A stretch of 64,000 bases of DNA from Balneolaceae bacterium (lineage in GTDB: Bacteria > Bacteroidota > Rhodothermia > Balneolales > Balneolaceae), in assembly GCA_007693745.1 (NCBI GenBank), contig REDA01000044.1, positions 1-64,000 of the forward strand, given 5' to 3'. How positions within the stretch are numbered: position 1 is the first letter of the stretch; the number at the start of each line of letters is the position of its first letter. Below, piece by piece: positions 35,335-64,000 of the stretch. A model generated the notes under the pieces. The model did not search any database and was not told the origin of the DNA. It was given only the letters and a program-made list of their open reading frames with translations. The position numbers and the translations under genes were made by a program.

Positions 35335-37646
<2,312 letters not shown>

Positions 37647-46809: not shown

Positions 46810-47916
46810 CTAAACCCAGTACATAGACGCGGAAGCGGCTTCTACCAACTTGTCGATATCCGTGCTGTAAACCTCACCGATATTCCCGACCCTGAAACAG
46901 TTATATTCCGTTACTTTTCCCGGATAGATTACAAAACCCCTTGCCTTTAGATGATTATAGAATTTTTTAAAATCATACTCCGGATGATCAGGAGACAGGA
47001 AAGTGGTGATGATGGGTGAGTGAAGTCTGTCATCGAGCAGTGTTTGAAAACCAATCTTTCTGAAACCAGCAACCAACTGCTTTTGATTTTGAGTGTACCT
47101 CTGATGTCTATTCTCAATACCACCTTCTTCATCAAGTTCCAGCAAGGCCTGACGAAAAGCTCTGACAACATGAGTCGGTGAGGTGAACCGCCATTTTCCA
47201 TTGGCTGTCTCCATGGTTTTCCACTGGTCGTGCAGATCAAGCGAGTGTGATCTTGCAAAACCCTTAATGTTCTCCATGGACTCCCTCTTTGCAACAACAA
47301 AACCAAATCCAGGTACACCCTGAATACATTTGTTGGCACTGCTAATCAAAAAATCAATACCCCATTGCTCCATATCAATCGGTATGCCACCGAAACTGCT
47401 CATTGCATCCACGATAAAACACAAAGCATATTTTTGGGCGATTTCACCAATTTGCTCAATCGGGTTCAGCATGCCGGTTGTGGTTTCACAATGTACCATC
47501 ACAAGATGAGTAAACGAATCACTCTCGAGAATCCTCTCAACATCCTCCGGAATCACTTCTCCGGTATCCCCCCAATCAAGAACAAGATGATTAAGATGCA
47601 GCATTGAGGAGATTGTAGCGAGCCTTTTCCCGTAAGCACCATTTGCCAGAACCAGAAGCTTGCCGCTGTCTTTGGGCATCACAGAACCGATCACGGACTC
47701 AACAGAAAACGTACCGCTTCCCTGCATCAGAACAGAGGTGTATTCTGCACTACTGCCAGCAGCAAGATTAACAATGGCGGATCGTATTTGCTGAACGATC
47801 TGATTATAATCATCATCCCATGTACACCAGTCCCGAAGCATTACATCTTTGACCGTGCGGCTTGTAGACAGCGGACCGGGAGTCAGGAGCAGATAAGGGT
47901 TCTCGGATTCAGGCAT
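46810..47916 (-). CDS. phnW: 2-Aminoethylphosphonate-pyruvate transaminase
   Basis: PLP enzyme that converts 2-aminoethylphosphonate (ciliatine) plus pyruvate to phosphonoacetaldehyde plus alanine. The 368 residues fit. Motifs: [25 protein letters not shown] (9-33), [16 protein letters not shown] (64-79), [11 protein letters not shown] (142-152), [11 protein letters not shown] (169-179), and the PLP lysine Lys196 in [27 protein letters not shown] follows. It lies 26 bases after the PhnX-like gene on the same strand and is presumably cotranscribed. Confidence 0.95.
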
Positions 47917-47942
47917 GGATCAGAAATTTAATCGAACCGATC

Positions 47943-48641
47943 TTATTCATTCACAGGCATTTCTGCCTCATTCATCACCTGAAGTAGTTCATCCGGAGAA
48001 GAGATCAACACATCATGATCAAATTTTTCAAGCTCCTGCTCACTATGTGTACCGTAAAGCACCCCTACCACAAGACCGCACCCGGCAGCTCTGCCCTCCA
48101 GTAAATCCGAAGGAGTATCCCCGACTTTCACAATAACGGAATTGTCACTTATATCAAATCTTCTGGCAAGTTCCTTAATCATATCTGAATGAGGACGTCC
48201 ATTCTCAACTTCATCGCTGGCAATAAGATCGTCAATCAAAGAATCCCGAAGCCAACCCATTCTTGAGATAATAATATCTGTAGTGGATCTGCTGAATCCT
48301 GTATTCAGTGCAATGTGAATTCCAAGTTTTTTCAGATCTCTGAAGAGATTTGAAACACCCTCAATTTCAGATATATCAGCATTCTTGTAGTGTTCATTTA
48401 AAATATCCAGAAAACGGTCATGAATCTTATCAATCGTTTCAGAAGTGTATTCGATACCCTGTTCATCAAGAAGCATTCGAATGGCTTCAGATTTCTTATA
48501 TCCCATTACTCTTTTAACAGAAACAGGCTCCACTGTCATCCCATGAAGTTCAATCGCTTCACAAAAGGCGTTTGAAACATCATTTTCATTATCCTGCAGT
48601 GTGGTCCCTGCAATATCAAAAACTACCAGTTTGAATCTCAT
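47943..48641 (-). CDS. PhnX-like phosphonatase (HAD superfamily)
   Basis: A 232-residue HAD hydrolase of the phosphonatase-like group. The nucleophile Asp9 lies in FDIAGTT, where Ala11 replaces the usual second Asp, as in phosphonoacetaldehyde hydrolase. Lys50 in MGYKKSEAI aligns with the Schiff-base lysine of PhnX. The late motif GDTPSDLLEGRAAGCGLVVGV is standard HAD motif IV. With PhnW just downstream the likely reaction is phosphonoacetaldehyde to acetaldehyde and phosphate. The alternative is another phosphonate or phosphate ester. Confidence 0.85.
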   Translation of the reverse strand: MRFKLVVFDIAGTTLQDNENDVSNAFCEAIELHGMTVEPVSVKRVMGYKKSEAIRMLLDEQGIEYTSETIDKIHDRFLDILNEHYKNADISEIEGVSNLFRDLKKLGIHIALNTGFSRSTTDIIISRMGWLRDSLIDDLIASDEVENGRPHSDMIKELARRFDISDNSVIVKVGDTPSDLLEGRAAGCGLVVGVLYGTHSEQELEKFDHDVLISSPDELLQVMNEAEMPVNE

Positions 48642-48955
48642 ATAATTTCGGTATTCGTTAATTGAGTATTTGTATAATAAAGGAAAGTTACCATAAATGA
48701 AACACGCTAATCATAGCCAATAAAGAGTTTTTGTCTGTCTCATTGTAAAATTTTCAGTGAGACCATTTCAGAAAGGATGTTGTCCAATACGGGCTTCAGT
48801 CAGTGAACAAGCGTTGAAGAATCAGAGTAACATGATCTCAATACAGAGATAGGCAAGAAACATGCACAGGGGTATTATCAAGAATACAAGAACAGTTAAG
48901 ATTCAGCCGCTGCGCACTAATAACAGTGGGTTCAGGCTGCAAAAAAGGTCACTTA
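48642..48955. other. Spacer between the XRE-cupin gene and the PhnX-like gene, 314 bases
   Basis: The gap lies within the presumed three-gene minus-strand unit. I see no gene or strong terminator; a 67-codon plus-strand frame running from this gap into the 3' end of the XRE gene (48862-49065) is not protein-like. A promoter for the PhnX-like gene is likely here, perhaps the target of the XRE-cupin regulator. Confidence 0.5.
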
Positions 48956-49522
48956 TCAGGAGTATAGATAAAAAGCGATCATCAAACACTCTAAACCATA
49001 AGGGTTCTTCGGAACATGTGCCAGACGTCCGTCAAAGAAAATGGAATCGCCCTCATTTAATGTAACCGATTCCCCGTCAATGATATAATCACATCTTCCC
49101 CGAATGATATATTTAAACTCAAATGCATCCGTTTCGACGGTTTCTCTCTTACAGTCAGGAGCCAGCGTAAGGAGTACAGTTTCAAATCCAATAAAATCCT
49201 TTTCATTGGAAAAAAGAGAGTGATACGTAAATCCCACTGCTTCATCTTCTCTTTCAACAGTCTCAAGTTCAGAATTTCTGATCACATAAAATTTTTGATC
49301 CTTTCCTTTTCCGATATTTTCAAAAAAATCAGAGGGTTCAATTTCAAGTGCATTGATAATCGATAACAGGACGGGCACAGAGGGGATTGTTCTGCCATTC
49401 TCAATTCGGGATATTAATCCGTTACTGACATTTGCCCTTTTGGCTATTTCACTCGCATACAGATTTTTTTCCTTGCGAATAGTGCGGATTTTCTTACCGA
49501 TCCCAATAAGATATGAGTCCAT
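48956..49522 (-). CDS. XRE-family regulator with cupin domain
   Basis: A 188-residue protein with an N-terminal HTH_3 (IGKKIRTIRKEKNLYASEIAKRANVSNGLISRIENGRTIPS, about 7-48) and a C-terminal cupin (about 110-185) with LTLAPDCKRETVETDAFEFKYIIRGRCDYIID and AHVPKNP. Such proteins often sense small ligands. Its place upstream of the phnX-phnW pair, and on the opposite strand from the susC operon, makes it the likely local regulator. The ligand is unknown. Confidence 0.88.
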   Translation of the reverse strand: MDSYLIGIGKKIRTIRKEKNLYASEIAKRANVSNGLISRIENGRTIPSVPVLLSIINALEIEPSDFFENIGKGKDQKFYVIRNSELETVEREDEAVGFTYHSLFSNEKDFIGFETVLLTLAPDCKRETVETDAFEFKYIIRGRCDYIIDGESVTLNEGDSIFFDGRLAHVPKNPYGLECLMIAFYLYS

Positions 49523-50194
49523 TATACATTTATAATTTATTAATAGGGGGCTTTGAGAAACCAGGTATTCTGCACAGGATCAAAGCGAAAGCAATTTTTT
49601 AAAACCGCTGCGTATTTGCGATATATGAGGATATTTAAGTTACGACAATGAAGATAGTGGGCAAAAGAACAGTTTTCAAAACCCACAAATAACCTTTCAA
49701 TTTAAAGAGTTACGAATAGAAATACCTAATGATATTCTCAGATCAGGCAGCCAATTTAACACAGTCAAAATTGAATGAATGAAGGCTTTCATAAAACAGC
49801 ATTTCCGGATGTGATCTGTGTGAAATCAAATTTAAAACCTCATCGGATTGACTATATATAAATTTTTGAAATATGAGACTATGAAAATATTTGGAAAAAA
49901 CATTTATACAAATCCCACATAAATATAATGTATTTAGACTCTTAGTCTGATTTACGCCATTCCACTCACCAAAAAAACCTGCCAGACCCTTTCATTTGTT
50001 AATAATATTTTAACATTTGTTAATTATTTACTATATATATTGATAATTCATTTGAGCAGAATCCATCAGGAAAGATTTTTTATTCCTTTTTCCTATTATT
50101 TTTTATGTATTTATGTATCTTTAATGATCTCAATCCATTTATAATGACCTTTCTTATTTTTTACTAATAGTCAATTAACCATAACCACCATACT
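49523..50194. other. Long spacer between the XRE-cupin gene and susC, 672 bases
   Basis: A very AT-rich gap, containing copy 2 of the 34-bp repeat. The last 200 bases hold repeated TTTGTTAA/TTAACA words around 49990-50030 and TATCTTTA at 50116-50123, which resembles the TAnnTTTG -7 element of Bacteroidota promoters. The susC promoter must lie here, but its position is uncertain. Confidence 0.5.
49643..49676 (+). repeat. 34-bp dispersed repeat core, copy 2
   Basis: The core CGACAATGAAGATA through GGGCAAAAGAACAGTTTT matches copy 1 at 35471-35504 at 31 of 34 positions. It lies between the divergent XRE-cupin and susC genes. Upstream similarity to copy 1 extends to about 49603. Confidence 0.75.
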
Positions 50195-53100
50195 ATGAAA
50201 GACAAACGCAACTATTTGTCAGTCATCCTTTTATCAGGATTACTATTTTCACTTTCCTCGATAACGGCGATTGCACAGACAATAACAGGCAGTGTAACGG
50301 ACGCAGGTACGGGTGAACCCCTTCCTTCTGTATCCGTTATGATTGAGGGGACTCTCACAGGTACAATTACCAATCTGAACGGCGAGTATGAAATTACAGT
50401 CCGCTCAGGAGAGGATGTTCTTGTATTCAGCTCAATCGGTTTTGAAACAACCCGAATTCGTGTTGGGGATCAGACCCGTATTGATGTCAGCCTGAATGAA
50501 GATACGGTAATCCTGGACGAGCTTATTGTTACAGGTTACACAATTCAAAGACGGGCCGATGTTACCACAGCAATATCATCAGTACCAAATGTACAGCAAC
50601 AACTCAACCGGCCGATCACCAATGTTGCGGATATTCTTCAGGGTGCCGTACCGGGGGTCACTGTCATACGTGAGGGTGGTGATCCTACACGTGAATCAAA
50701 TGTCATTATCCGGGGTCAGGGTACTCTCGGCTTTACAGCTCCGCTGTGGGTTGTTGATGGTGTACCGTATGATGGACCCCGCCCAAATCCCCGTGATATT
50801 GAGAGTATAGAGATCCTGAAAGATGCTGCGGCAGCGGCTATATACGGAGCCAGGGCTTCAAGTGGTGTGATATTGGTAACAACCCGAAGAGGCGAATCAG
50901 CTACACCCCGTGTTGAAATCGACTATATGAGAGGGTATGCCCAGGCCGTGAACCTGCCCTCAGCACTCACCGCTCCGGAGTATCAGGCAGCCCAGACCAA
51001 TGCCCACCTCCATGCAGGAGACCCTCCACCTGCCGGACACAATCCGCTTCTGAATCCCTGGGGTGCGGTTCAGCGGACCGACTGGATGAACGAGATTTTC
51101 AGAACAGCTCCTTACGACAATCTGAATGCACGTGTGAGCGGACAATACAGTAACCTGAATTATATGACCTCTTTCGGATATCAGGGAGAAGAGGGTATTC
51201 TGAGGAATACTTATAACCAGAGGCTTAGCTGGAGATTAAAAACCGATTTTGATGTAAACCAGTGGCTGCGATTCGGGCAGAATTTCTATCTGAACTACGG
51301 GAATTTCAGAGGCACCAATACAACCAGCGATTTTAGTGGTGTGGTTACCGCTGCAATTTTTATGAATCCGGCTGCACCGGTCTACGATCCGGTCACAACC
51401 TTCCATGGAAGTGTCCCTTTTGAATTATCTCAATTTGCCGGAGCCTACGGGGATGTGTACAATCCGGTGGCTCTTCTGGAGCGCGATGAAGGGCAAAGGG
51501 AAAATTTCACACTCACCGGAAATGTATATGGTCAGGCCAATATTATGGATAACCTCCGGTTCAAAACCACATTCAGCCTTCTCAGACGCACCAACTCTGA
51601 AAAACGTTTCGATCCGATCCGTTTGGAAATCGGCCGAAGCACACCTGAGAATGTTCTAACCCACTACGAAGGAAAACAATTTAACTGGCTATGGGATCAG
51701 CAGCTTGACTATCTGCAAAATTTCGGACGCCATAACGTATCGCTTACAGCTGTCTATTCAGCCGATTACCGCTCATTTGAAGATTTCTCGGTGAACTTCC
51801 GTGGATTCGATAATGAAGCAGACTTCTTCCGCTATATCAACAACGCCGGGGATACGAGCCGGCCGGGTAGTGCAGGCGCATGGGAGGACATCATGCTCTC
51901 CATGGTTGCAATCGGTAACTACAGTTTTGATGACCGCTATTTTGTGGGCGCCTCCATTCGCCGGGACGTCTCATCCAGGCTTCCGGAAGGAAATCGAAGC
52001 GATATTTTTCCATCGCTTTCCGGGGCATGGAAAATATCCTCCGAACGCTTTTTTGATGTTGAGTCCATCAACATGCTGAAACTGAGGGCCTCCTGGGGTG
52101 AAATCGGAAACATCAACTCTGTAAGCCGTACCGCATTTGCGAATCCGCTGTCAAGCTCATTATCCCATCTTGGAGACCCCCCGGTCAGGCCACTATCTTT
52201 TTTCGCCAATACAGTGGCGAATCCGAATTTAAAATGGGAGAGGACCGAAACCTATAATGCAGGGATTGACCTGCATATGTATCGCGACCGACTCATTTTT
52301 ACTGCTGAGTATTATGAGAAATTTACGCGGGGTGTAATTTTGAGAAATGCACCAAACACACATCAGGGTATGGGATCCGGTCCGCTGATTAATGCAGGAG
52401 ATGTTTCCAACAAGGGAATTGAATTTTCGGCCACATACCGCGGACAAATCAGGCAGTTTGCCTACAGTATTGGCGGTAACTTCTCCAAGAACAACAATGA
52501 GCTGCTCACCTTCGGTGATTATGACGCGGATGTGATTCGTCATGGGGATGCCGTGAGAGGTGTGCTGTTTCCTTTCCAGAGTGAACCCGGCCAGCCACTC
52601 AGGTCGTTCTTCCTGATTCCCTCGAACGGAATATTCCAGTCGCAGGCTGAAATAGATAATTACACTGGTTCGAATGGCACTCCGATTCAACCCAATGCCC
52701 GGCCCGGAGACCTCCGGTTCGTAGATGTGAATGGAGATGGCAGAATTACAAGTGCAGATAAAATCTATATGGGTAACGCCATCCCTGATATAACCTACGG
52801 ATTTAATATCAATCTGAATTACAGGGATTTTGATTTCAGTACGTTCCTTCAGGGTGTAGCCGGTAACAAGAACTTCTTCGGTTACAAGTACAACGCCTAT
52901 CAGGCCGCTATACAGCCCTACAATATGGATCGCAGAGCGATGGATGCGTGGACACCTCAAAACACCAACACAAATATTCCGGTGATGTCCACTCAGGATC
53001 CAAACAACAATTACGGCACCGAATCTGACTGGTATCTCTACGATGCAAGCTATCTCAGAATCAGAAATGTAACCTTTGGATACACAGTACCACACAGCAT

Positions 53101-53269
53101 CTTGTCACGCGTGGGTTCAGGTGTAACGGCAAGGTTCTATGCAAGTGTTGACAACCTGCACACCTTTACAAGCTATCCCGGAATGGATCCGGAGATTGGA
53201 GACAGAATCGACAGTGCGTTCTATCCACAGGGCCGTACGTTTGTATTTGGCGTAAACCTCGGATTTTAA
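50195..53269 (+). CDS. SusC/RagA-family TonB-dependent outer-membrane transporter
   Basis: A 1024-residue TonB-dependent receptor. The signal peptide covers residues about 1-27 (SLSSITAIAQ). A CarboxypepD_reg-like domain follows (ITGSVTDAGTGEPLPSVSV, about 29-100), then the plug domain (LDELIVTGYTIQRRADVTTAIS, about 108-225) and the barrel, ending GRTFVFGVNLGF with a terminal Phe. It would take an oligomeric or bulky ligand across the outer membrane with the SusD partner starting 27 bases downstream. The substrate is unknown; the island context suggests phosphorylated or phosphono compounds. Confidence 0.95.
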   Translation: MKDKRNYLSVILLSGLLFSLSSITAIAQTITGSVTDAGTGEPLPSVSVMIEGTLTGTITNLNGEYEITVRSGEDVLVFSSIGFETTRIRVGDQTRIDVSLNEDTVILDELIVTGYTIQRRADVTTAISSVPNVQQQLNRPITNVADILQGAVPGVTVIREGGDPTRESNVIIRGQGTLGFTAPLWVVDGVPYDGPRPNPRDIESIEILKDAAAAAIYGARASSGVILVTTRRGESATPRVEIDYMRGYAQAVNLPSALTAPEYQAAQTNAHLHAGDPPPAGHNPLLNPWGAVQRTDWMNEIFRTAPYDNLNARVSGQYSNLNYMTSFGYQGEEGILRNTYNQRLSWRLKTDFDVNQWLRFGQNFYLNYGNFRGTNTTSDFSGVVTAAIFMNPAAPVYDPVTTFHGSVPFELSQFAGAYGDVYNPVALLERDEGQRENFTLTGNVYGQANIMDNLRFKTTFSLLRRTNSEKRFDPIRLEIGRSTPENVLTHYEGKQFNWLWDQQLDYLQNFGRHNVSLTAVYSADYRSFEDFSVNFRGFDNEADFFRYINNAGDTSRPGSAGAWEDIMLSMVAIGNYSFDDRYFVGASIRRDVSSRLPEGNRSDIFPSLSGAWKISSERFFDVESINMLKLRASWGEIGNINSVSRTAFANPLSSSLSHLGDPPVRPLSFFANTVANPNLKWERTETYNAGIDLHMYRDRLIFTAEYYEKFTRGVILRNAPNTHQGMGSGPLINAGDVSNKGIEFSATYRGQIRQFAYSIGGNFSKNNNELLTFGDYDADVIRHGDAVRGVLFPFQSEPGQPLRSFFLIPSNGIFQSQAEIDNYTGSNGTPIQPNARPGDLRFVDVNGDGRITSADKIYMGNAIPDITYGFNINLNYRDFDFSTFLQGVAGNKNFFGYKYNAYQAAIQPYNMDRRAMDAWTPQNTNTNIPVMSTQDPNNNYGTESDWYLYDASYLRIRNVTFGYTVPHSILSRVGSGVTARFYASVDNLHTFTSYPGMDPEIGDRIDSAFYPQGRTFVFGVNLGF

Positions 53270-53296
53270 ATAGAACACAAGTAATTCTAACTGAAA

Positions 53297-54886
53297 ATGA
53301 ACAGAACAATGAACAGAATTCAACGCTTTTTATTCACAGCACTTCTGAGCGGCGTCATGCTGTCATCCCTCACGGGTTGCGGGGATGATTTTGTAGTGAC
53401 CACACCGCAGGGATCTCTTACCGATGCCGCCTTCTGGCAGACGGAAGCGGATGCTATATCCGCCTCAAATGCACTCTACTGGAGGAAGTTTGATAATAAC
53501 AACATGTATGGGCGGGGGATTATGTGGTATATTAACGCCTCTGATGATATGGTGACCGGCCGTGCCGATGCCGCTTCCGCCCGCCTTCGCGATTTTATTG
53601 CGGACGGCTCTGAAAGCAGGGTTCGGGACTATTATGGCTTTGCCTATCAGAAGATTCAGTACGCGAATAATATTCTCCGGAATGTACCGGATATGGACAT
53701 CAGGGAAAGCCTGAAAAACAGGATACTCGGTGAGGCTTATTTCAGCCGCGGATACTTTCAGTTAAAACTGGCAGGTTTGTATGGTGACCACAGGGCTGGG
53801 ATTCCGATTGTAACCGAGGAGAATATGGAAGAGGATTTCTTTCCGAGAGCGACTCATGTCCGTGAAAACTACGCAGCGGCCGCCGCAGACCTGCAGAGAG
53901 CAAGCGAGCTTCTTCCCTACTTTACCTCCTACAGTTCTGAAGACCTGGGCAGAGCCCACAAAGATGCAGCCAATGCGTTTCTTGCAAAAACCTACCTCTA
54001 CTGGGGACAGTATGACGACAGCCAGTGGAGTAACGCTGTGCAGGCGGCAGACCGGGTGATCAGTTCACCCACCAACCGCGGCCTGATCAACACCGGCACT
54101 CCGGAAACCGATTTCCACAGTGTCTTCTGGATCCGAAATAACTGGTCATCCGAATATATCTACTCTATTGTGAGTGGCGTACAGACAGGCTCAATCCTTC
54201 CGGGAGTCATGCTCGAGCAGGTTGCATGGGGTATCTACAACGGATGGGGATACTTCCATCCCACACTTGATCTCTATGAGCATTTTGAAGAGGGAGACCA
54301 CCGCAAAAAAGCAACCATTCTTGAGTTCGGCGATGAGTTCATGTTCAATGGGCAGCCCAGACGATATTTTTCCAGCAATTCATGGACCGGTTTTCAGTTC
54401 AATAAATATATGGAAGGATACTGGGAAGATCATAGTATCAACGTAAACCCGAATGGAAACAAGCCGACAACCAATCTGAATATCCCTCTCATGCGTTTTG
54501 CAGAAGTAGTATTGATTAAAGCGGAAGCTCTTCTGATGCAGGGTCAGAATGCAGATACGGAAATCAACATGATCCGTGAGCGGGCCGGACTGGCTCCCAT
54601 CAGCAATGCCACTATGGACGACCTGAAAAGAGAACGTCGTTCGGAACTTGCCGGTGAATTTTCTGACCGTCACCTCGACCTTGTTCGATGGGGAGATGCT
54701 GCGGAAGCGTATGCCAGGCCGGCACTCGGACGAGCTCATTTTGATACCAACGACCCCGATTCGGGTTATGAAATCATTGAAGCCTGGAGAGCGAGGCCTA
54801 ATTTCAATCCCTCTGTTCACCATGTATGGCCAATCCCGACCCGGTATGTAGAAGCTTCCGGAATCGAACAGAATGAGGGCTGGTAA
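53297..54886 (+). CDS. SusD/RagB-family surface lipoprotein
   Basis: A 529-residue lipoprotein, the lid partner of SusC. The lipobox is LTGC near residues 25-28, after MNRTMNRIQRFLFTALLSG. Met5 is an alternative start. The SusD TPR-like regions include YFSRGYFQLKLAGLYGD (about 149-165), and the C-terminal RERRSELAGEFSDRHLDLVRWG (residues about 442-463) is the RagB/SusD end signature. It captures the substrate on the outer face. Encoded between SusC and the LamG protein, with gaps of 27 and 33 bases, in one operon. Confidence 0.95.
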   Translation: MNRTMNRIQRFLFTALLSGVMLSSLTGCGDDFVVTTPQGSLTDAAFWQTEADAISASNALYWRKFDNNNMYGRGIMWYINASDDMVTGRADAASARLRDFIADGSESRVRDYYGFAYQKIQYANNILRNVPDMDIRESLKNRILGEAYFSRGYFQLKLAGLYGDHRAGIPIVTEENMEEDFFPRATHVRENYAAAAADLQRASELLPYFTSYSSEDLGRAHKDAANAFLAKTYLYWGQYDDSQWSNAVQAADRVISSPTNRGLINTGTPETDFHSVFWIRNNWSSEYIYSIVSGVQTGSILPGVMLEQVAWGIYNGWGYFHPTLDLYEHFEEGDHRKKATILEFGDEFMFNGQPRRYFSSNSWTGFQFNKYMEGYWEDHSINVNPNGNKPTTNLNIPLMRFAEVVLIKAEALLMQGQNADTEINMIRERAGLAPISNATMDDLKRERRSELAGEFSDRHLDLVRWGDAAEAYARPALGRAHFDTNDPDSGYEIIEAWRARPNFNPSVHHVWPIPTRYVEASGIEQNEGW

Positions 54887-54919
54887 TCATTTCCCACTTA
54901 AAAAATTAAATAGACTGCT

Positions 54920-56023
54920 ATGAAAAAAATAGGATCAATAATTGCACTCTTTGTTGCTCTGGCCTGGTTCACAGGCTGCAGCGATGAATTTCAGGAGATG
55001 GATACCCGTTTAATTGACCGTGAGATTACCTTTTCCTTCCTGAATCCGCAAACCGGTGAGCTGGTAAGTGGAGTAATGGAGGGTGCTTTCCGACCGGAAA
55101 ATAACCTGCAGGTTCAAATCTCTTCAGATTATACCATTGATAAGGTGGATATTGTCAACATCAATACAAGAACCGTACTCGGCAATGTAGCGGTAGGAGG
55201 TAATCAATTCAGTTACTCTACACCGGTAGCCGAAATGGGAATTCCATTCGGACAGGCAGTCAACATCGCCTTTCATGTCTATTTTGCGGATGCCGGTGTA
55301 GATGGCTTTAACCATGCTTCCATGCGTTCGTTCACCTTCCGTGTGCAGGATGATATCCCCTCCAATGTTCATTTTGTACGCTCGGATGGTACAATGCTTG
55401 AACTATCAACCGAAATCATCAATGCGGCTCAGGTCTATGATGACCCGGTTTACGGGATAGTCACCTCCTTTAAGGGCGGGGAAAACTCCTTTATGATTGT
55501 AGAAGACAATCCTCTTCTCCGGTTTGGAGCTAACAGAGACTTTACCGTCAGCTGGTGGATGAAAAGTGATCATAACATCAGCGATCCCGCCGTGATGGGA
55601 ACACAAAACTGGGCAAGCGGCGCCAATACCGGCTGGGTGGTGGCTTGGTCACGTGGGAGATTACGTTTTGTTGCCTCCTCACGTGAGGATGGAGTACGGA
55701 ATCAAACTCCATATACCAGCGAACAGAAGTTCGACCTGAGACAAGACAACCCGCTCTGGGCAGACAATGAATTCCATCATGTAGTGCTTACTGCTGTAAG
55801 GGGCGAAGGGATGTACATCTATATCAATGGAGAAGAAGAAGGATTTGGAAGCATGGAAGCAGTGAGCCTTGACAACGAAAACCAGATACATATCAATCAG
55901 GATGGAACCGGTAACTACGGAGGTACCAATCCCGATAGAAAACTAAGGGCAGAGTATGCTCAGATCCGGTTTTACGACCGTGCCCTAACTGCAGCGGAAG
56001 TCCGCGAACTTTACAACGAATAA
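54920..56023 (+). CDS. LamG-domain surface lipoprotein
   Basis: A 367-residue lipoprotein, with signal peptide and lipobox FTGC (about 17-20). Residues about 30-130 look like an immunoglobulin-like domain (ITFSFLNPQTGELVSG). Residues about 190-365 form a LamG/concanavalin-like jelly roll, with SWWMKSDHN, HHVVLTAVRGEGMYIYINGEE and QIRFYDRALTAAEVRELYNE, the LamG_3 pattern. It sits where SusE/F-like binding proteins are found, so it probably binds the substrate at the cell surface. The operon ends in a strong terminator 13 bases after its stop. Confidence 0.85.
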   Translation: MKKIGSIIALFVALAWFTGCSDEFQEMDTRLIDREITFSFLNPQTGELVSGVMEGAFRPENNLQVQISSDYTIDKVDIVNINTRTVLGNVAVGGNQFSYSTPVAEMGIPFGQAVNIAFHVYFADAGVDGFNHASMRSFTFRVQDDIPSNVHFVRSDGTMLELSTEIINAAQVYDDPVYGIVTSFKGGENSFMIVEDNPLLRFGANRDFTVSWWMKSDHNISDPAVMGTQNWASGANTGWVVAWSRGRLRFVASSREDGVRNQTPYTSEQKFDLRQDNPLWADNEFHHVVLTAVRGEGMYIYINGEEEGFGSMEAVSLDNENQIHINQDGTGNYGGTNPDRKLRAEYAQIRFYDRALTAAEVRELYNE

Positions 56024-56036
56024 ACATATATCTGTT

Positions 56037-56069
56037 GCAGCCCTGCTTGAAAACAGGGCTGCTCTTTTG
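56037..56069 (+). terminator. Rho-independent terminator ending the SusC-SusD-LamG operon
   Basis: A perfect 9-bp stem, GCAGCCCTG at 56037-56045 and CAGGGCTGC at 56054-56062, with a loop of eight bases and a T-rich tail (TCTTTTGT). It begins 14 bases after the LamG stop and marks a boundary before the next set of genes. Confidence 0.92.
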
Positions 56070-56213
56070 TCCCGGAACTAAACCTCATCCCGCAAAAGGT
56101 TCTGCATTGGATAACCTGCGTCACACAATTCCCTGACCTGAAACGATTTCAAACATCAAAAAACTCTATTCTGTCCCTCAAACCCAAACCACCGCTCAGG
56201 CGAGGCTGAATCA

Positions 56214-57695
56214 ATGATCACAAAACCACTCCTATTGACACTTTTTTTCTGCCTTCTGATAACAGCGATGCTGATGGAAACCGCACTGGCGGATGACAGA
56301 GGAGAGATACATGTTCTTGAACTGACCGGAACGATTACTCCTTCTGAAGAAGGAACGTATATTAAAATCCCATTTACTGTCCCCTCTTCCACCGGTGCCC
56401 TCGAAATTGAGTTCGAATATGAAGGCAGAAGAATCCACTCAGAAATTGAAATTGGTCTCTTCGATCCAAACGGCTTTCGGGGAACCAGCCGTTTTTCAAA
56501 AAGCCGCTTCTATCTCAGCCGTCACCGAACCACACCCTCCTACTTCCCGGGTCCTGTTGAACCCGGCGAGTGGCATGTTTCCCTGGGATTCCCAACGATC
56601 AGACAGGAATCGGCATACAGAGTCAAAATTACAATGATTCCAAAAAGTCACCCGGTTTATACCGGACCCGACAGTGAGTCGCTGCAGGATTCTCTAAAGT
56701 GGTACAAAGGAGATTTTCATACACATACCGGCCACAGTGATGCGTTTGGATGTCACGACACACGCGGATTACGATCACCATGCCAGGTCTATCAGGTGGC
56801 TGAAGCCTCCCATCGAAACGGACTGGACTTTGTCTCAATCAATGACCACAACACTGTGAGCCACCATCAGGATATATTTACCATTCAGCCAACCTTTCCG
56901 GATCTTTTACTCATACGCGGACAGGAAGTAACCACATTTTTTGGCCATATGAATGTGATCGGCACCAGTGAACCGGTTGACTTCAGAATCGGTTATGAGA
57001 ACTACACTGTATCTGACATTCAGGCACTCTCCAGAGACCTGGGATCTCTTTTTGTGATCGCCCATCCAGGACGGGAAACCGGCCCTTCATGCACCGGTTG
57101 TGGCTGGAGTGCTGAAAATACAAACTTCGATCTTGTGGATGCTATCGAGATTGTGAATGGTACAAATGTTGAAACAGCCATAGCAGGGATCCCTTTTTGG
57201 CATGAACGCCTCAATGAAGGATACAGGATTACAGGTATTGGAGGAAGTGATGATCATGGAGCCGGCTTTGGAAGAGCGCAGCCGGGAACACCCACAACCA
57301 TGGTTTACGCGGCTTCTCTTTCTGAAAAAGATCTGATCGACAGCGTTCGCAAGGGGCGGGTATATCTCAAAACCAGAGCCCCGGAAGGGCCTGAAATTCG
57401 CTTTTACGCCACAATGGGGGATAAGAGATGGGAGATGGGAGATGAAATCAGAAGTAAAGAATTAACAGAAAAAGAAATAAAATTTTTCATAGAATACAGT
57501 CATTTTGAAGAAAATGAAGTTGAGCTAATCATAAATGGTGAACTCGTGAACCATTCTCTGATTGATCGAAACCCATCCGGGCATTTTGCAACAAAAGAGT
57601 TTTCTCACCCGGCAAATGAAACGGGCTGGATTCGGTTTAATCTGAGAGACCCTGAGGGGATCACCGTAATATCAAATCCAATCTATATCCGTTAA
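56214..57695 (+). CDS. Exported PHP-domain metallohydrolase (CehA/McbA type)
   Basis: A 493-residue secreted protein with a signal peptide (hydrophobic 5-22, cleavage near ALA-DD at 26). The N-terminal beta-domain (about 30-150) precedes the PHP catalytic domain: DFHTHTGHSD with His169 and His171, INDHNTVSHH, RGQEVTTFFGHMN, IAHPGRE and GSDDHGAG near 345. These are the metal ligands of PHP phosphoesterases. A beta-rich tail follows. CehA/McbA homologues include carbaryl and other hydrolases, but many are phosphoesterases. The 12-base gap to the next gene implies one transcript. Substrate unknown. Confidence 0.88.
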   Translation: MITKPLLLTLFFCLLITAMLMETALADDRGEIHVLELTGTITPSEEGTYIKIPFTVPSSTGALEIEFEYEGRRIHSEIEIGLFDPNGFRGTSRFSKSRFYLSRHRTTPSYFPGPVEPGEWHVSLGFPTIRQESAYRVKITMIPKSHPVYTGPDSESLQDSLKWYKGDFHTHTGHSDAFGCHDTRGLRSPCQVYQVAEASHRNGLDFVSINDHNTVSHHQDIFTIQPTFPDLLLIRGQEVTTFFGHMNVIGTSEPVDFRIGYENYTVSDIQALSRDLGSLFVIAHPGRETGPSCTGCGWSAENTNFDLVDAIEIVNGTNVETAIAGIPFWHERLNEGYRITGIGGSDDHGAGFGRAQPGTPTTMVYAASLSEKDLIDSVRKGRVYLKTRAPEGPEIRFYATMGDKRWEMGDEIRSKELTEKEIKFFIEYSHFEENEVELIINGELVNHSLIDRNPSGHFATKEFSHPANETGWIRFNLRDPEGITVISNPIYIR

Positions 57696-57706
57696 TCAAA
57701 ACCGAT

Positions 57707-59320
57707 ATGAACAATTATTCCCGGACTGTTGTTCTCATTTCTTCCATCCTTCTTCTCATTCTCAGTGGTTGCCGGATACAGGACAGCCTAAACGGGCGGA
57801 TTGCATCCCATGTCATTATTATTGGATTGGATGGTGTAGGCTCCGATGCGATGCAACTCTCACATACCCCGCATCTCAACCGGATCATATCCGAGGGCTT
57901 TATCGCACCTGAGTGCCGGGTGGTGATGCCCTCCGTAAGTTCATCCAATTTCAAGACCATGCTAACGGGTGTGGGACCATCCGAGCACGGCGTAACGTCC
58001 AACAGCTGGCAGAGAGACAACCGGCTCATTGATCCGGTCGTTACAGGGTATGAAGATCTATTTCCAAGCATCCTCAGCTGGACACGCGAACAGCTGCCGG
58101 ATGCAAACATTCATTTCTTTTATGAGTGGGGTTCGCTTGCCCGTATGTTTGAACTCTCCGCTGCAGACAGAGCCGAACATGAAAACGACGGAGAAACCAA
58201 TTTCCGAAATGCAATGAATGCCTTTTTCGAAGAACTACCCGATCTTCTTTTTCTGAATGTGGATGAGACAGATGCCTATGGTCACCGCTACAGCTGGGAA
58301 AGCGATGAGTTTATGGAACGCGTCAGCTTTTACGACGCTCTGATCGGTGAATTTGTAACCCGGCTGGAGGAGAACGGGCTGAAAGAGAGAACCCTTCTTC
58401 TGATTACTGCCGACCACGGTGGGATCAATCATGGCCACGGAGGGGAAAGTGATGAGGAGATGTACGTGCCGATTATCCTTTTCGGAGCGGGTGTACATCC
58501 CGGTAAGGTATATGACGAAACCTGCTATCTATATGATGTGGCTCCCACAGCAGCCTATGCCCTGGGAGTCACCCCGCCCACTGCAGTATTTGGCCGGCCG
58601 CTAAAAGCAGCCTTTTCAGCAGAAAGCAGCAACAGAACCTATGTGCCACTCCCGAAAATACGTCCTGCCGCGGGGTTCTATACCGATCCTGAAGTTGAGG
58701 TGACACTTCGAGCTGATCATGAAGAAGCTGTGATTCATTATACTATCGACGGAAGCCAGCCTGGAACGAACTCAGCTGTTTATCAAGAACCCTTTTCAGT
58801 TTCCGGACTTACACTCATTCGGGCGCTTACCCAGCTCGGGGGTGAAGTTAGCCGTGAGCAATCGGTTTTTATCCGGACAACCGATGAAACCTCCGGGAGG
58901 TTTGTGGAGTGGACATACATTGAGGGTGAATGGCGGCAGGTTCCCGACTTCAGCCGCTATCCCGTCGTGAAACGGGGTACAAGTTTTGAAATCTCACTGG
59001 ATGAAATACCGCACAGGGAAGATTACTTTGCGGTTGCATATACCACTCATATCGAAATCGAAACAGGGGGAACCTATACGTTTTTTACCAATTCTGACGA
59101 TGGCAGCCTTCTTTTTATCGATGGAGAACTCATTGTGGATAATGATGGCACTCACTCAACCAGAGAACGTTCAGGAACCATTGAACTGGAATCCGGAATC
59201 TATCCTCTGGAAGTTCGTTACTTCGAAAATTATATGGGCGAACATCTGGATGTATCCATTCAGGGACCCGGAATCCCGAAACAGATTCTTACAAACCGTT
59301 TCTTCCGACCCCAACCTTAA
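57707..59320 (+). CDS. Alkaline-phosphatase-superfamily phosphodiesterase with CHB_HEX and PA14 domains
   Basis: A 537-residue lipoprotein (lipobox LSGC at 19-22). The catalytic domain (about 35-305) belongs to the type I phosphodiesterase/nucleotide pyrophosphatase group: metal Asp42 in IIGLDGVGSD, nucleophile Ser78 by alignment with the NPP Thr, VDETDAYGHR, and TADHGGINHGHGGE. A chitobiase C-terminal-type domain (about 323-390, VIHYTIDGSQPG) and a PA14 domain (about 435-525, TFFTNSDDGSLLFIDGELI) follow, domains that usually bind glycans. Likely acts on phosphodiester-linked sugars or lipid head groups outside the cell. Inference only. Confidence 0.88.
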   Translation: MNNYSRTVVLISSILLLILSGCRIQDSLNGRIASHVIIIGLDGVGSDAMQLSHTPHLNRIISEGFIAPECRVVMPSVSSSNFKTMLTGVGPSEHGVTSNSWQRDNRLIDPVVTGYEDLFPSILSWTREQLPDANIHFFYEWGSLARMFELSAADRAEHENDGETNFRNAMNAFFEELPDLLFLNVDETDAYGHRYSWESDEFMERVSFYDALIGEFVTRLEENGLKERTLLLITADHGGINHGHGGESDEEMYVPIILFGAGVHPGKVYDETCYLYDVAPTAAYALGVTPPTAVFGRPLKAAFSAESSNRTYVPLPKIRPAAGFYTDPEVEVTLRADHEEAVIHYTIDGSQPGTNSAVYQEPFSVSGLTLIRALTQLGGEVSREQSVFIRTTDETSGRFVEWTYIEGEWRQVPDFSRYPVVKRGTSFEISLDEIPHREDYFAVAYTTHIEIETGGTYTFFTNSDDGSLLFIDGELIVDNDGTHSTRERSGTIELESGIYPLEVRYFENYMGEHLDVSIQGPGIPKQILTNRFFRPQP

Positions 59321-59598
59321 TTTTACGTTTTCACAATCTGCTGCCTGAACAGAGAACCATAAACAGTTTTCGAGGCATAAGGTTAACCAGTAAAAAAATT
59401 CATAATCAGCCACTATAGTGCTGATTTCAAGAATTCAAAGCGGTTACATCAACACACAATTGAGGTTACAGCGCCGGTCTGTAAGGGGCAGCATTCATAA
59501 CACAGGATACAAGCATTACATTTTTTTTTGTAGCTTACAATTCACATTGCGGCCTCTGCTGATAACAGGGTCGTGATCTCATTCCAAAACAACATATC

Positions 59599-60534
59599 AT
59601 GAACCGAAAAGAGTGGATAAAAAAAGCAGGTTTATCCGGTGCTGCACTGGCTGCCACACCTTTTACCATCATTGCATCTGACAAAAAGAAGAGAACCCTC
59701 AACCGTGCATTGCGAATCGCCCATATCACCGATCCGCACCTGCATGAGGGTGGGGATTCCGAAGCGTGGACCCGAACCTGCCTGAGAACCATACACTCTA
59801 TGGAAGACCGCCCCGATGTGATCTTCAACGGCGGGGATACGATCAATGATGCCCTGCGTCAGCCAGAAGAGTCGGTCACCGAACAGTGGTCCATCTGGAA
59901 CCGTATCAGGGAGGAAGAGATATCCATTCCGATGGTCAGCTGCATCGGCAATCATGACGTTTGGGGTCTTCCGGAAGTTAGCGGGGATCCCAGATACGCC
60001 AAAAACTGGGCCGTCCGGCAGCTGGGGCTCTCCAACCGTTACTACGATTTTGAACAGAATGGGTGGCATTTTATCGTACTCGACAGCACACACAGACAAG
60101 ATGATGGCAGCTGGTATATCGCCCGCCTGGATGAGGAGCAGTTTAGCTGGCTGGAAGCAAAACTCAATGAAATACCGTCCAACAGACCCGTATTCATCTT
60201 TTCACATATTCCAATCATGTGCGCGGCTTCCTTTTTCGACGGCGATAATGAAGAGACGGGCAACTGGGTAATCCCCGGCCAGTGGGTGCACATCGACGCC
60301 CGCCGCATCGTAGAGCTCTTCTACCGGCATAAAAATGTGAAGGTATGTATCAGCGGTCACATCCATCTGCTCGACAAGGTGGTTTATAATGATGTTACCT
60401 ATTATTGCAACGGTGCGGTTTCCGGTAACTGGTGGAAAGGAAATTACCATCAAACCCAACCCGGCTTTGCAGTCATCAATCTCTACGAGAATGGCACATT
60501 TGACCGGGAGTATCTGGCCTATGGATGGCAATAG
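59599..60534 (+). CDS. Exported calcineurin-like metallophosphoesterase
   Basis: A 311-residue protein with the metallophosphatase motifs: DPH at 45-47 (in HITDPHLHE), GGD near 76-78 (FNGGDTIND), GNHD at 117-120, and GHIH at 253-256. The N-terminal MNRKEWIKKAGLSGAALAATP resembles a Tat or Sec leader without a twin arginine. It likely cleaves phosphomonoesters or phosphodiesters in the periplasm. A 278-base gap separates it from the phosphodiesterase upstream; the GDPD follows after 79 bases. Its partner roles are inferred from position. Confidence 0.9.
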   Translation: MNRKEWIKKAGLSGAALAATPFTIIASDKKKRTLNRALRIAHITDPHLHEGGDSEAWTRTCLRTIHSMEDRPDVIFNGGDTINDALRQPEESVTEQWSIWNRIREEEISIPMVSCIGNHDVWGLPEVSGDPRYAKNWAVRQLGLSNRYYDFEQNGWHFIVLDSTHRQDDGSWYIARLDEEQFSWLEAKLNEIPSNRPVFIFSHIPIMCAASFFDGDNEETGNWVIPGQWVHIDARRIVELFYRHKNVKVCISGHIHLLDKVVYNDVTYYCNGAVSGNWWKGNYHQTQPGFAVINLYENGTFDREYLAYGWQ

Positions 60535-60613
60535 CACTCATATTATCCTTTAGTGACTCTCCATTGAATTCCCGAAGTCAATCAATCCCTTCAACGACGA
60601 ACCATCCCCGGTC

Positions 60614-61423
60614 ATGAGAACCGCTATACTCCTCGCCTTGCTTCTGATAACCGCCCTGCTGCCAAACAGTGTAACGGGGCAGCAGCCCGGGGTTCCCGAT
60701 GTTTATCTGATCGCTCACCGTGGGGGCGTTGTAGATGAAGAGCACGCCGAAAATTCACGCGCTGCCATCTTAACAGCCTTAGAGAGGGGATACTGGATGC
60801 TTGAAGTGGATATTCGTGAAACCAGGGATGGTAGAGCCATTCTTCATCATGATGTGGATTTCCAAAGATATTATCATGACCCCCGCCGTGTTGAGGAGAT
60901 GGACTGGAAACAAATTAAACAACTGCGGTCAGATATTGATGGAGCCAGGCCACTACTTTTTTCCGAAGCTGCCGAACTGGTTGCCGGCAGGGCAAGACTC
61001 ATGCTTGATGTGAAGGGAAATGATCTTTCAGAAGGATTTTACCGCGAAATTGAAGAGGCTCTTATCCGGAACGGCCTTTTGGAAACCACCTTTATCCTGA
61101 GCGGCAGGCAGGCTACAGAATATTTTCACGATCGCACTTCACATTCCATCAGCTACACCAGGCTTTTGGATGCAGCGGAGGCAGGTGAAGATGTCAGCCG
61201 CAGATACCATCTTTTTATGCTTGCCAGTCAGCTGACCGAAGAGATGATTCAAAAAGCGGATGAGCTGAATGTTCTGGTTGTGGCGGCTGTAAACGAATTT
61301 CGATATGATCAGGCCAATGTTGATCCATGGGAAGGCGCTCAAAAGGATATAGAACGGCTGCTGAGACTGGGAGTGAAACACTATCAGATCGATTCGATGT
61401 ATGAACCACTGTTTCCTCTGTAA
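60614..61423 (+). CDS. Glycerophosphodiester phosphodiesterase (GDPD)
   Basis: GDPD hydrolyses glycerophosphodiesters to glycerol 3-phosphate and an alcohol. The 269-residue protein has a signal peptide (1-22, NSVTG). The GDPD core is intact: HRGG (35-38), Glu46 in HAENS, Glu64 and Asp66 in LEVDIRE, and His78 in LHHD. The Lys of DVKG (near 138) and the VAAVNEF-like segment continue the TIM barrel. In this island, it would release glycerophosphate from deacylated lipid head groups. Confidence 0.92.
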   Translation: MRTAILLALLLITALLPNSVTGQQPGVPDVYLIAHRGGVVDEEHAENSRAAILTALERGYWMLEVDIRETRDGRAILHHDVDFQRYYHDPRRVEEMDWKQIKQLRSDIDGARPLLFSEAAELVAGRARLMLDVKGNDLSEGFYREIEEALIRNGLLETTFILSGRQATEYFHDRTSHSISYTRLLDAAEAGEDVSRRYHLFMLASQLTEEMIQKADELNVLVVAAVNEFRYDQANVDPWEGAQKDIERLLRLGVKHYQIDSMYEPLFPL

Positions 61424-61794
61424 ATCCTGATCATTTTCTCCTTTAAATTTTATACTCAGAGAGAGGACACTGTTTTTTTAAACAGGCGTAATTTCACCCG
61501 CAAATGAGAGATTGTTTCGAAATACGAAAAAGCCATTGATCGATAAACTGGCTGTACTTGATGGGCTGATTTTACCCTTTCCCGTTGCCTTACATAATTT
61601 TACACCCATCTAAAAACCATTGACAATCTATCTGACCTGATCGTTGTTTACAATTAATTAACAATTATTTAACCATTAGTAAACATTCAGAGTGCAGAAT
61701 TATTGCGACTTTGTGGTAACGTTTTCAGCCGATGTTTAAATCTGAGAAGAAGGCACCGGCTGATCCATAACTTCAAACAACCACCAGACCAGCA
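61424..61794. other. Spacer upstream of the second susC gene, 371 bases
   Basis: AT-rich, with TTAACAATTATTTAACC at about 61667-61683, an arrangement reminiscent of the TTTGTTAA words upstream of the first susC. No gene or clear terminator. It should carry the promoter of the second SusC. Confidence 0.5.
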
Positions 61795-64000
61795 ATGACA
61801 CGACCACTTAACTCATACTCTAAGGTTTTTCTTCTGAGCCTCATGATTTCTGTTCTCTTCGGAGGATGGTTACAGGCACAAACGGTACGCGGTACAGTCA
61901 CCGATGCAGATACGGGTGAACCCCTGCCGGGGGTGAACATCCTTCTTGAGGGAACTACCTCAGGCACCTCGACAACTGTGGATGGTATTTTCGAAATTTC
62001 CGTTCCTTCACTCGACGGAACGCTCATCGTGTCATTTATTGGATATGAAACACAAAGAGTTGATATCCTTGGCAGAACAGAAATTGATGTATCCCTCAGG
62101 ATCAGCCGGATACTTGCCGATGAGGTTGTCGTGATTGGTTACGGGACACAAAGACGTGCCGAAGTAACCACCTCGATCAGCACTATCAGTACGGAGCAGT
62201 TTAACCGGGGACATACGGAGTCGCCTGAACAATTAATGCAGGGCAGAATTGCAGGCGTGAATATAACCTCCGTCAGTGGCCAGCCCGGTTCTCCGCAAAC
62301 GATTACCATTCGTGGCCCCGGAACACCGCGTGCAGGAAGCGGACCTCTCTATGTGATCGACGGCGTGGCGATTGATAACAATGCAGATACGTCACCGGGT
62401 GGTCGGAATTTTGGCCCCGGAAGCCCAAATAACACAAATCCACTCTCCTTTCTGAATCCTAACGACATTGAATCAATCACCGTATTGAAAGATGCTTCTG
62501 CTACTGCTATTTACGGCTCAAGGGCTGCCAATGGCGTAATTCTCATCACAACCAAAACAGGGGAGAGAGGAGTTGCCCGCCTCAGCTACAACGGATCTCT
62601 GACCATCTCCGGCATTTCCAACAAACTGGACATGCTGAGTCCGGATGAATTCGCTGATTTTCATCGTTCCATTGGTCAGCCCGAAGTAGATATGGGAAAC
62701 CGAACCAATTATTTTGATGAGATCCTCCGAACAGCATACTCCAACAGGCACTCCCTCTCCTACAGCGGAGGATCCGAAACGATGGATTATACTGCATCAC
62801 TCAACTTCTCCAATCAGGAAGGAATCATTATTGCCAATAATCTTCAAAATTTTGGCGGGCGAGTCAGGCTTAATCAGCGGTTTCTGGAAAATCGCCTCAA
62901 TGTTGGTTTCAATCTTTTAGCCGACCGCCAACGCACCGATTATGTACCGGTAGCCAACACAGCCAGTACGAATCTGGGTGATATGCTCACCAACTCACTG
63001 ACACAAAATCCAACACAACCCATTTACAATCCTGATGGTTCTTTCTACGAAATCCGCAGTGACGGGATGAATCCCGTTCAGGTGCCGGAGATCTTTACTG
63101 ATTTTGGAGAGGTAACCAGAATACTCGGAAAGCTGAGTGTTGACTTTGAAATCGTAGAAGGATTGATGTACAGATTCAACACGGCCATTGATAATTCACA
63201 GGGAAGCAGAAGTTCTCAGGTAAGTCCCCATAACAATCAGCGTATTGATGCCCCGAATGGTGCCTATAGTTTTAACAATCGTGAAAACAGTATGTTCCAG
63301 ACAGAAAGTACGCTGAACTATCTTTTCTCGGTCGAAAACCACAGTTTTGACCTTCTCGGAGGTTTCTCATATCAGTCCTTTTTGAGAGAGGGACGCGGTT
63401 TTTCCATTCGGGACTTTACCACAACGGAAATCAATGCATTTCATAACCCCGGTATCGGATCCAATGTGACCCTGGCCGACTATCCAAACGGTTTTTCTGC
63501 CAAAAACGAGCTGCAATCCTATTTCACCCGTCTGAACTACAACTTTGCCCAGCGCTATTTCGTGACAGCAACCCTGCGGGCAGATGGTTCATCACGATTT
63601 GGAAATGAAAACCGGTACGGCTATTTCCCCTCATTTTCAGCCGCATGGCAGATCTCTGATGAGAATTTCTATAAACTGAGTACTCTGAACTCCTTAAAAC
63701 TTCGAGCCGGATGGGGTCAGACCGGTAACCAGGACATTCCGGACGGGATTACTCAGCAGAGAATTAATGTTCAAACAAGAAGCGGATATGAGCTGAATCC
63801 GGGCACGATCACTCCCGGAATTACCTTCATCCGAACACAGAATGAAAATATACGGTGGGAAGTATCTACCCAGGCCAATATTGGAATCGATTTCGCCCTG
63901 TTTAATGACGCGCTGAACGGGAGTATCGATCTCTATCGCAAGGTAACCAGTGATATTCTCCTCGAAACAACCTCCGGTGTAGATCCGGTAGTAGCTTCCA
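61795..64000 (+). CDS. SusC/RagA-family TonB-dependent transporter, 3' end outside the window
   Basis: The open frame begins at ATG 61795 and runs to the end of the window (735 full codons, no stop). Signal peptide residues about 1-29 (FLLSLMISVLFGGWLQAQ), a CarboxypepD_reg-like domain (VRGTVTDADTGEPLPGVN), a plug domain (ADEVVVIGYGTQRRAEVTTSIS), and barrel strands (VLKDASATAIYGSRAANGVILITT). It resembles the first SusC but is clearly different in sequence. A SusD is expected just beyond the window. It probably serves the same island, since it follows GDPD on the same strand. Confidence 0.93.
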   Translation, partial: MTRPLNSYSKVFLLSLMISVLFGGWLQAQTVRGTVTDADTGEPLPGVNILLEGTTSGTSTTVDGIFEISVPSLDGTLIVSFIGYETQRVDILGRTEIDVSLRISRILADEVVVIGYGTQRRAEVTTSISTISTEQFNRGHTESPEQLMQGRIAGVNITSVSGQPGSPQTITIRGPGTPRAGSGPLYVIDGVAIDNNADTSPGGRNFGPGSPNNTNPLSFLNPNDIESITVLKDASATAIYGSRAANGVILITTKTGERGVARLSYNGSLTISGISNKLDMLSPDEFADFHRSIGQPEVDMGNRTNYFDEILRTAYSNRHSLSYSGGSETMDYTASLNFSNQEGIIIANNLQNFGGRVRLNQRFLENRLNVGFNLLADRQRTDYVPVANTASTNLGDMLTNSLTQNPTQPIYNPDGSFYEIRSDGMNPVQVPEIFTDFGEVTRILGKLSVDFEIVEGLMYRFNTAIDNSQGSRSSQVSPHNNQRIDAPNGAYSFNNRENSMFQTESTLNYLFSVENHSFDLLGGFSYQSFLREGRGFSIRDFTTTEINAFHNPGIGSNVTLADYPNGFSAKNELQSYFTRLNYNFAQRYFVTATLRADGSSRFGNENRYGYFPSFSAAWQISDENFYKLSTLNSLKLRAGWGQTGNQDIPDGITQQRINVQTRSGYELNPGTITPGITFIRTQNENIRWEVSTQANIGIDFALFNDALNGSIDLYRKVTSDILLETTSGVDPVVAS

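Follow-up and report, generated by a model that had tools for sequence, protein, structure and literature searches.

In Flavobacterium, PusCD clusters are induced by low phosphate and co-localise with phosphomonoesterases, phosphodiesterases (PDEs) and phosphonate-degrading enzymes (Lidbury et al. 2020; PMC8115612), and in one of these phosphate utilisation systems (PUS), PUSI, PusCD1 is found together with a PI-PLC (pf16670) and the calcineurin-type PDE CpdA (PMC8115612). In a second type of system, PhnW and PbfA both yield phosphonoacetaldehyde, which is the substrate of a phosphonatase (Zangelmi et al. 2021; PMC8154272), and the AepXVW, AepP and AepSTU systems are transporters of 2-aminoethylphosphonate (AEP) (Murphy et al. 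2021; PMC8316502). Here, we analyse a gene island on contig REDA01000044.1 of a Balneolaceae bacterium (GCA_007693745.1). The window, i.e. the whole stretch of DNA analysed, comprises bases 1-64,000 of this 92,855-base contig from a draft genome of 2.87 Mb; the island exceeds the window and reaches ~76.8 kb on the contig. Based on its gene content, we propose, at a probability of roughly 60% for the full mechanism, that the island functions in organophosphorus utilisation built around the degradation of AEP and R-1-hydroxy-AEP (HAEP).

The island shares with the Flavobacterium PUS that SusCD-like pairs lie beside exported phosphodiesterases and not glycoside hydrolases, and its second pair, SusC2/SusD2, is accompanied by a PI-PLC and a calcineurin-type PDE as in PUSI. 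It differs in that it belongs to Balneolota, has two SusCD pairs and a full phnW-phnX-like-pbfA-DUF5690 set, and adds an alkaline phosphatase (AP)-superfamily enzyme with a PA14 domain (AP-PA14), CehA-type enzymes and an XRE-cupin regulator. As in the phnWX-pbfA clusters (PMC8154272), PhnW, a phosphonatase and PbfA are clustered; however, DUF5690 stands in for a membrane transporter, and the set comes with linked exported esterases and SusCD pairs (the terms SusCD, TonB and DUF were not found in the main text of PMC8154272). The likeness to AepXVW, AepP and AepSTU (PMC8316502) lies in dedicated AEP uptake beside catabolic genes. None of these transporters was identified in the island, in which the membrane protein is DUF5690, and no search aimed at them was made. 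Thus, a SusCD-phosphoesterase system of this kind is already known from Flavobacterium, and the island is not unprecedented; what makes it believable as a means of feeding on bound phosphorus is that the partnership recurs across the phylum. The statement in an earlier note on this DNA that no SusCD system for AEP lipids had been described has to be narrowed, because PusCD clusters contain phosphonate-degrading enzymes (PMC8115612); it holds in so far as, in the literature searched, no paper joined aminoethylphosphonate and SusD beyond a citation.

Gene content of the island

Using the list of open reading frames and domain scans, we recovered every gene described earlier for the window at its coordinates and with the named domains, and beyond the window SusD2 and further genes come after the second SusC. 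Signal peptides and lipoboxes, e.g. those of SusD1, the LamG protein and AP-PA14, were assigned by eye only. The genes in the window are:

46810..47916, minus strand, PhnW, 2-aminoethylphosphonate--pyruvate transaminase (TIGR02326, 562 bits versus a cut-off of 400.8; equivalog passed)
47943..48641, minus strand, PhnX-like HAD-family protein, predicted phosphonoacetaldehyde hydrolase (below NCBIfam cut-offs; PDB matches and catalytic residues)
48956..49522, minus strand, predicted XRE-cupin regulator (HTH_3 and Cupin_2)
50195..53269, plus strand, SusC1, TonB-dependent outer-membrane transporter (TIGR04056, 782 bits)
53297..54886, plus strand, SusD1, predicted surface-binding lipoprotein (PF07980, PF14322; lipobox LTGC)
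54920..56023, plus strand, LamG-domain lipoprotein, candidate surface-binding protein (PF13385; lipobox FTGC)
56214..57695, plus strand, CehA/McbA-type PHP metallohydrolase, predicted to be exported (NF038032, 244.7 bits versus a cut-off of 80)
57707..59320, plus strand, AP-PA14, AP-superfamily type I phosphodiesterase with PA14, lipoprotein (PF01663, PF07691; lipobox LSGC)
59599..60534, plus strand, calcineurin-like phosphoesterase (PF00149)
60614..61423, plus strand, glycerophosphodiester phosphodiesterase (GDPD), predicted to be exported (PF03009, 4.8e-14)
61795..64000 in the window, continuing to contig position 64,815, plus strand, SusC2 (domain scans)

On the remainder of the contig, the following genes are present:

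64,844-66,502, plus strand, SusD2, following SusC2
66,621-67,880, plus strand, PI-PLC-C1 lipoprotein (PI-PLC-C1 domain, 381 bits)
68,033-69,961, minus strand, calcineurin-type metallophosphoesterase (domain scan)
70,324-72,408, minus strand, calcineurin-type metallophosphoesterase (domain scan)
72,422-74,113, minus strand, AP-PA14 paralogue, second AP/PA14 phosphodiesterase (domain scan)
74,094-75,413, minus strand, DUF5690 membrane protein (544 bits)
75,410-76,759, minus strand, PbfA, R-HAEP ammonia-lyase (NF049939, 629.6 bits versus a cut-off of 525; equivalog passed)

The phosphonate arm (phnWX) and the SusCD arm are transcribed divergently. Both SusC-SusD pairs adjoin predicted exported phosphoesterases and not carbohydrate-active enzymes, as in the PusCD-type arrangement, and no glycoside hydrolases were found among the proteins scanned between 46.8 and 76.8 kb of the contig. 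SusC2, SusD2, PI-PLC-C1 and a metallophosphoesterase stand consecutively, reproducing the gene content of PUSI. In an alignment, the Ser nucleophile and the metal ligands of AP-PA14 (57707..59320) are unchanged across 13 homologues.

A predicted pathway for AEP and HAEP breakdown

Degradation of AEP and HAEP to phosphate by PhnW, PbfA and the PhnX-like protein is well supported by sequence, in agreement with the AEP degradation by PhnW and PhnX proposed earlier, because PhnW and PbfA score above their cut-offs and the PhnX-like protein has the Asp, Ala and Lys residues of phosphonatases, although it misses the scores of the curated families (187.2 versus 218.9 for TIGR03351 and 104.8 versus 220 for TIGR01422). 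Its best PDB matches are exclusively phosphonoacetaldehyde hydrolases, and upon alignment to 2iof and 2ioh its catalytic Lys falls where the K-to-R chain 2ioh has an arginine. The Asp nucleophile, the Ala at +2 and the Schiff-base Lys are kept in 27/27 PhnX-like proteins, i.e. that of the island and 26 relatives. Phosphoenolpyruvate (PEP) mutase (PepM) was not found in the island genome or in four relatives, arguing that the direction is breakdown and that biosynthesis is unlikely.

Co-occurrence in the genus and order

PhnW and SusD1 are present in the same four of the 28 genomes of the genus, i.e. the island genome, G010, G017 and G020; among the 27 other genomes, the SusD1 orthologue (87%) and PhnW (66-69%) each occur only in the latter three. 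In a gyrA tree, G010, G017 and G020 form one fully supported clade deep within the genus, the island genome branches at the base, and genomes lacking both SusD1 and PhnW separate the two, so that PhnW and SusD1 are common to two separate lineages. The divergence of the shared island genes is ordinary or above that of gyrA and, therefore, does not indicate recent transfer. The three relatives carry XRE-cupin, PbfA, DUF5690, PhnW, GDPD-like and calcineurin genes on one contig and SusC1, SusD1, LamG, CehA, GDPD-like and calcineurin genes on another. Each has one close orthologue of the calcineurin-like protein, which adjoins PhnW in G017 and G020 and CehA/SusD1 in G010.

DUF5690 is present at 72-82% in metagenome-assembled genomes of Balneolaceae (isolates CSSed10, CSSed11, CSSed16 and DLM2), as well as in HLUCCA01; from the isolate names, we take the habitats of these relatives to be soda-lake sediments and a saline-lake mat, and the bacterium with the island is probably likewise of a salt- or soda-lake type. 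HLUCCA01, which belongs to another family of the same order, has a single stretch with PhnW, XRE-cupin, a TIGR03364-like oxidoreductase, PhnX-like, PbfA and DUF5690, together with AP-PA14, a metallophosphoesterase, calcineurin, CehA and two further metallophosphoesterases.

DUF5690 loci across the phylum

DUF5690 was found in 42 of the 394 genomes of the phylum, and we surveyed these 42 loci with up to 20 kb each. The controls were 39 regions on the same contigs, mostly ~100 kb away, and these matched regions also served as the background for SusC. Recurrent neighbours were obtained by clustering without prior labels. In this first pass, PhnX-like proteins recurred at 25 loci, TIGR03364 FAD oxidoreductases at 23, XRE-cupin at 19, SusC at 18, SusD at 16, a PhnZ-type HD oxygenase at 13 and PhnW at six, and two groups of AP-type diesterases at 13 and 11 loci. 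Compared with the controls, PhnX-like proteins (24/42 versus 0/39), XRE-cupin relatives (18/42 versus 0/39), AP-type diesterases (19/42 versus 0/39) and SusCD (19/42 versus 3/39) were all more frequent at DUF5690 loci.

The DUF5690 loci (L112-L153) are of two kinds: 29 have phosphonate enzymes and 13 lack them, and the substrate at the latter may be a different one. An independent SusC model, built from the island contig only, detected SusC within ~10 kb at 15 of the 29 loci with phosphonate enzymes, at one of the 13 without and in two of the 39 controls (Fisher 1.3e-5 versus controls and 0.0065 versus the bare loci); the 15 SusC-positive loci cover six families. As a separate observation, TIGR03364 FAD oxidoreductases, which are of the PhnW-associated kind, are common beside DUF5690 (22/42 loci; e.g. 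L119:8297-9421).

From this conserved neighbourhood, we infer that DUF5690 is an inner-membrane partner of phosphonate catabolism and a candidate AEP/HAEP transporter. The family had no match in a PDB profile search, gave 0.3% in a comparison with one MFS protein by hhalign and was not mentioned by any paper in the literature searched. An AlphaFold model from five close sequences has ~12 long helices, and with a pLDDT of 45 is too weak for use.

Other observations on the contig

The genes dnaN, gyrB and gyrA and, as judged by eye, rsmG- and mnmG-like genes lie within ~33 kb (window positions 11934-13052, 35709-37646, 37915-40386 and 41915-44463). This grouping is typical of an origin-proximal region, and the island may, therefore, sit near the replication origin. 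In the same genus, G005:C4:452126-458918 has two adjacent gyrA-like genes, each 89% identical to the gyrA of the window. A 466-aa fusion of an SCP2 sterol/lipid-transfer domain and a ribonucleotide-reductase small-subunit-like domain (R2lox-type by eye) is encoded at 45140-46540 (plus strand); its link to a lipid carrier could give a clue to the substrate of R2lox-like oxidases. Finally, a bacterial archaeo-eukaryotic release factor (baeRF family 7/3) at 5181-6308 (plus strand) adjoins acetate kinase.

Discussion

In nature, AEP is believed to exist mostly as a bound constituent of lipids and glycans rather than in free form. In the model that we suggest for the island, surface and periplasmic diesterases (AP-PA14, PI-PLC, CehA-type PHP, calcineurin-type and GDPD enzymes) would hydrolyse lipid- or glycan-borne esters of phosphonate or phosphate, the two SusCD pairs would carry bound or released pieces across the outer membrane, and DUF5690, as its conserved neighbourhood suggests, may move AEP and HAEP across the inner membrane. 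Inside the cell, PhnW is predicted to convert AEP and PbfA R-HAEP to phosphonoacetaldehyde, the C-P bond of which would be cleaved by the PhnX-like protein to give acetaldehyde and phosphate; family assignments and catalytic residues strongly support these last steps. Both divergent arms are probably under the control of the XRE-cupin protein, with a metabolite of the pathway as its likely signal. The hints to the source diverge, GDPD and PI-PLC suggesting lipids, and PA14 and LamG glycans. To name AEP lipids as the SusCD substrate would be a guess; PA14 and LamG would equally fit glycan-bound phosphonate, and ordinary phosphodiesters suit the PI-PLC, GDPD and calcineurin enzymes.

The co-occurrence in the genus together with the comparison to control regions supports that the phosphonate genes and the SusCD/phosphoesterase set belong together and that their grouping is beyond chance. 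The earlier note named a lack of any co-occurrence of phnWX and SusCD in relatives as grounds for refutation, which is not what we observe: they are found on one contig and in the same members of the genus, and across the phylum SusC is over-represented next to phosphonate genes. It is, thus, improbable that the two arms are neighbours by accident. Their divergent transcription, their separate contigs in draft relatives and the presence of one arm without the other in G038 and CSSed11_50 would fit such an accident, which is nevertheless disfavoured by the co-distribution in two separate lineages, by the phylum-wide enrichment over controls and by HLUCCA01, where CehA and calcineurin, which in the island belong to the SusCD arm, lie inside the phosphonate block. 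Even less probable is the biosynthesis or remodelling of the organism's own phosphonolipids with PhnW working towards AEP. The PhnW reaction is reversible in principle, but PbfA and the phosphonatase are degradative, and we rejected this explanation because PEP mutase was not found in the genome or the four relatives.

A weightier alternative, which we consider rather unlikely, is that the island is a general PUS, in which SusCD imports ordinary phosphodiesters (lipid head groups, nucleic acids or glycerophospho compounds), while the AEP genes share a phosphate-starvation island and have their own uptake route. The match of SusC2-SusD2-PI-PLC-metallophosphoesterase to PUSI speaks for this, and so do the GDPD, PI-PLC and calcineurin enzymes, whose typical substrates are phosphate diesters; by contrast, the restriction of SusC enrichment to those DUF5690 loci that have phosphonate enzymes, and the position of AP-PA14 next to PbfA/DUF5690 in HLUCCA01 and CSSed11_50, argue against it. 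Several observations weigh against organophosphorus utilisation built around AEP and HAEP as a single linked system. The phosphonate and SusCD halves are on different contigs in G010, G017 and G020, so that linkage is unseen there; the stretch in HLUCCA01 is without SusCD; and our prediction that CSSed11_50 holds SusD1 failed, as this genome, which from its coordinates appears to be G024, has XRE-cupin, PhnX-like, PbfA, DUF5690 and AP-PA14 and no SusD1 orthologue. SusCD is, therefore, linked and not obligate. Moreover, the surveyed loci come from related genomes and lack phylogenetic independence, the test loci themselves served to train most of the hidden Markov models used in the survey apart from the independent one for SusC, and SusD in most surveyed loci is of another subfamily, SusD-like_2 (one representative scanned). 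Thus, the loci do not share a single orthologous transporter, and transporters may have been recruited separately to the same task. More tentatively, and with the odds against it, the loci could form an unnamed phylum-wide class in which SusCD imports phosphonate-bearing oligomers (glycan- or lipid-bound AEP), the AP-superfamily surface enzymes hydrolyse phosphonate monoesters and DUF5690 represents a new family of inner-membrane transporters for AEP/HAEP.

For the protein families involved, the conserved catalytic residues back treating the PhnX-like (TIGR03351) proteins as phosphonatases. DUF5690, the freshest lead of the analysis, gains a hypothesis for its function, and the survey supplies a testable gene set consisting of SusCD, an AP-type diesterase, DUF5690, PhnX-like, TIGR03364 and PhnZ or PbfA.

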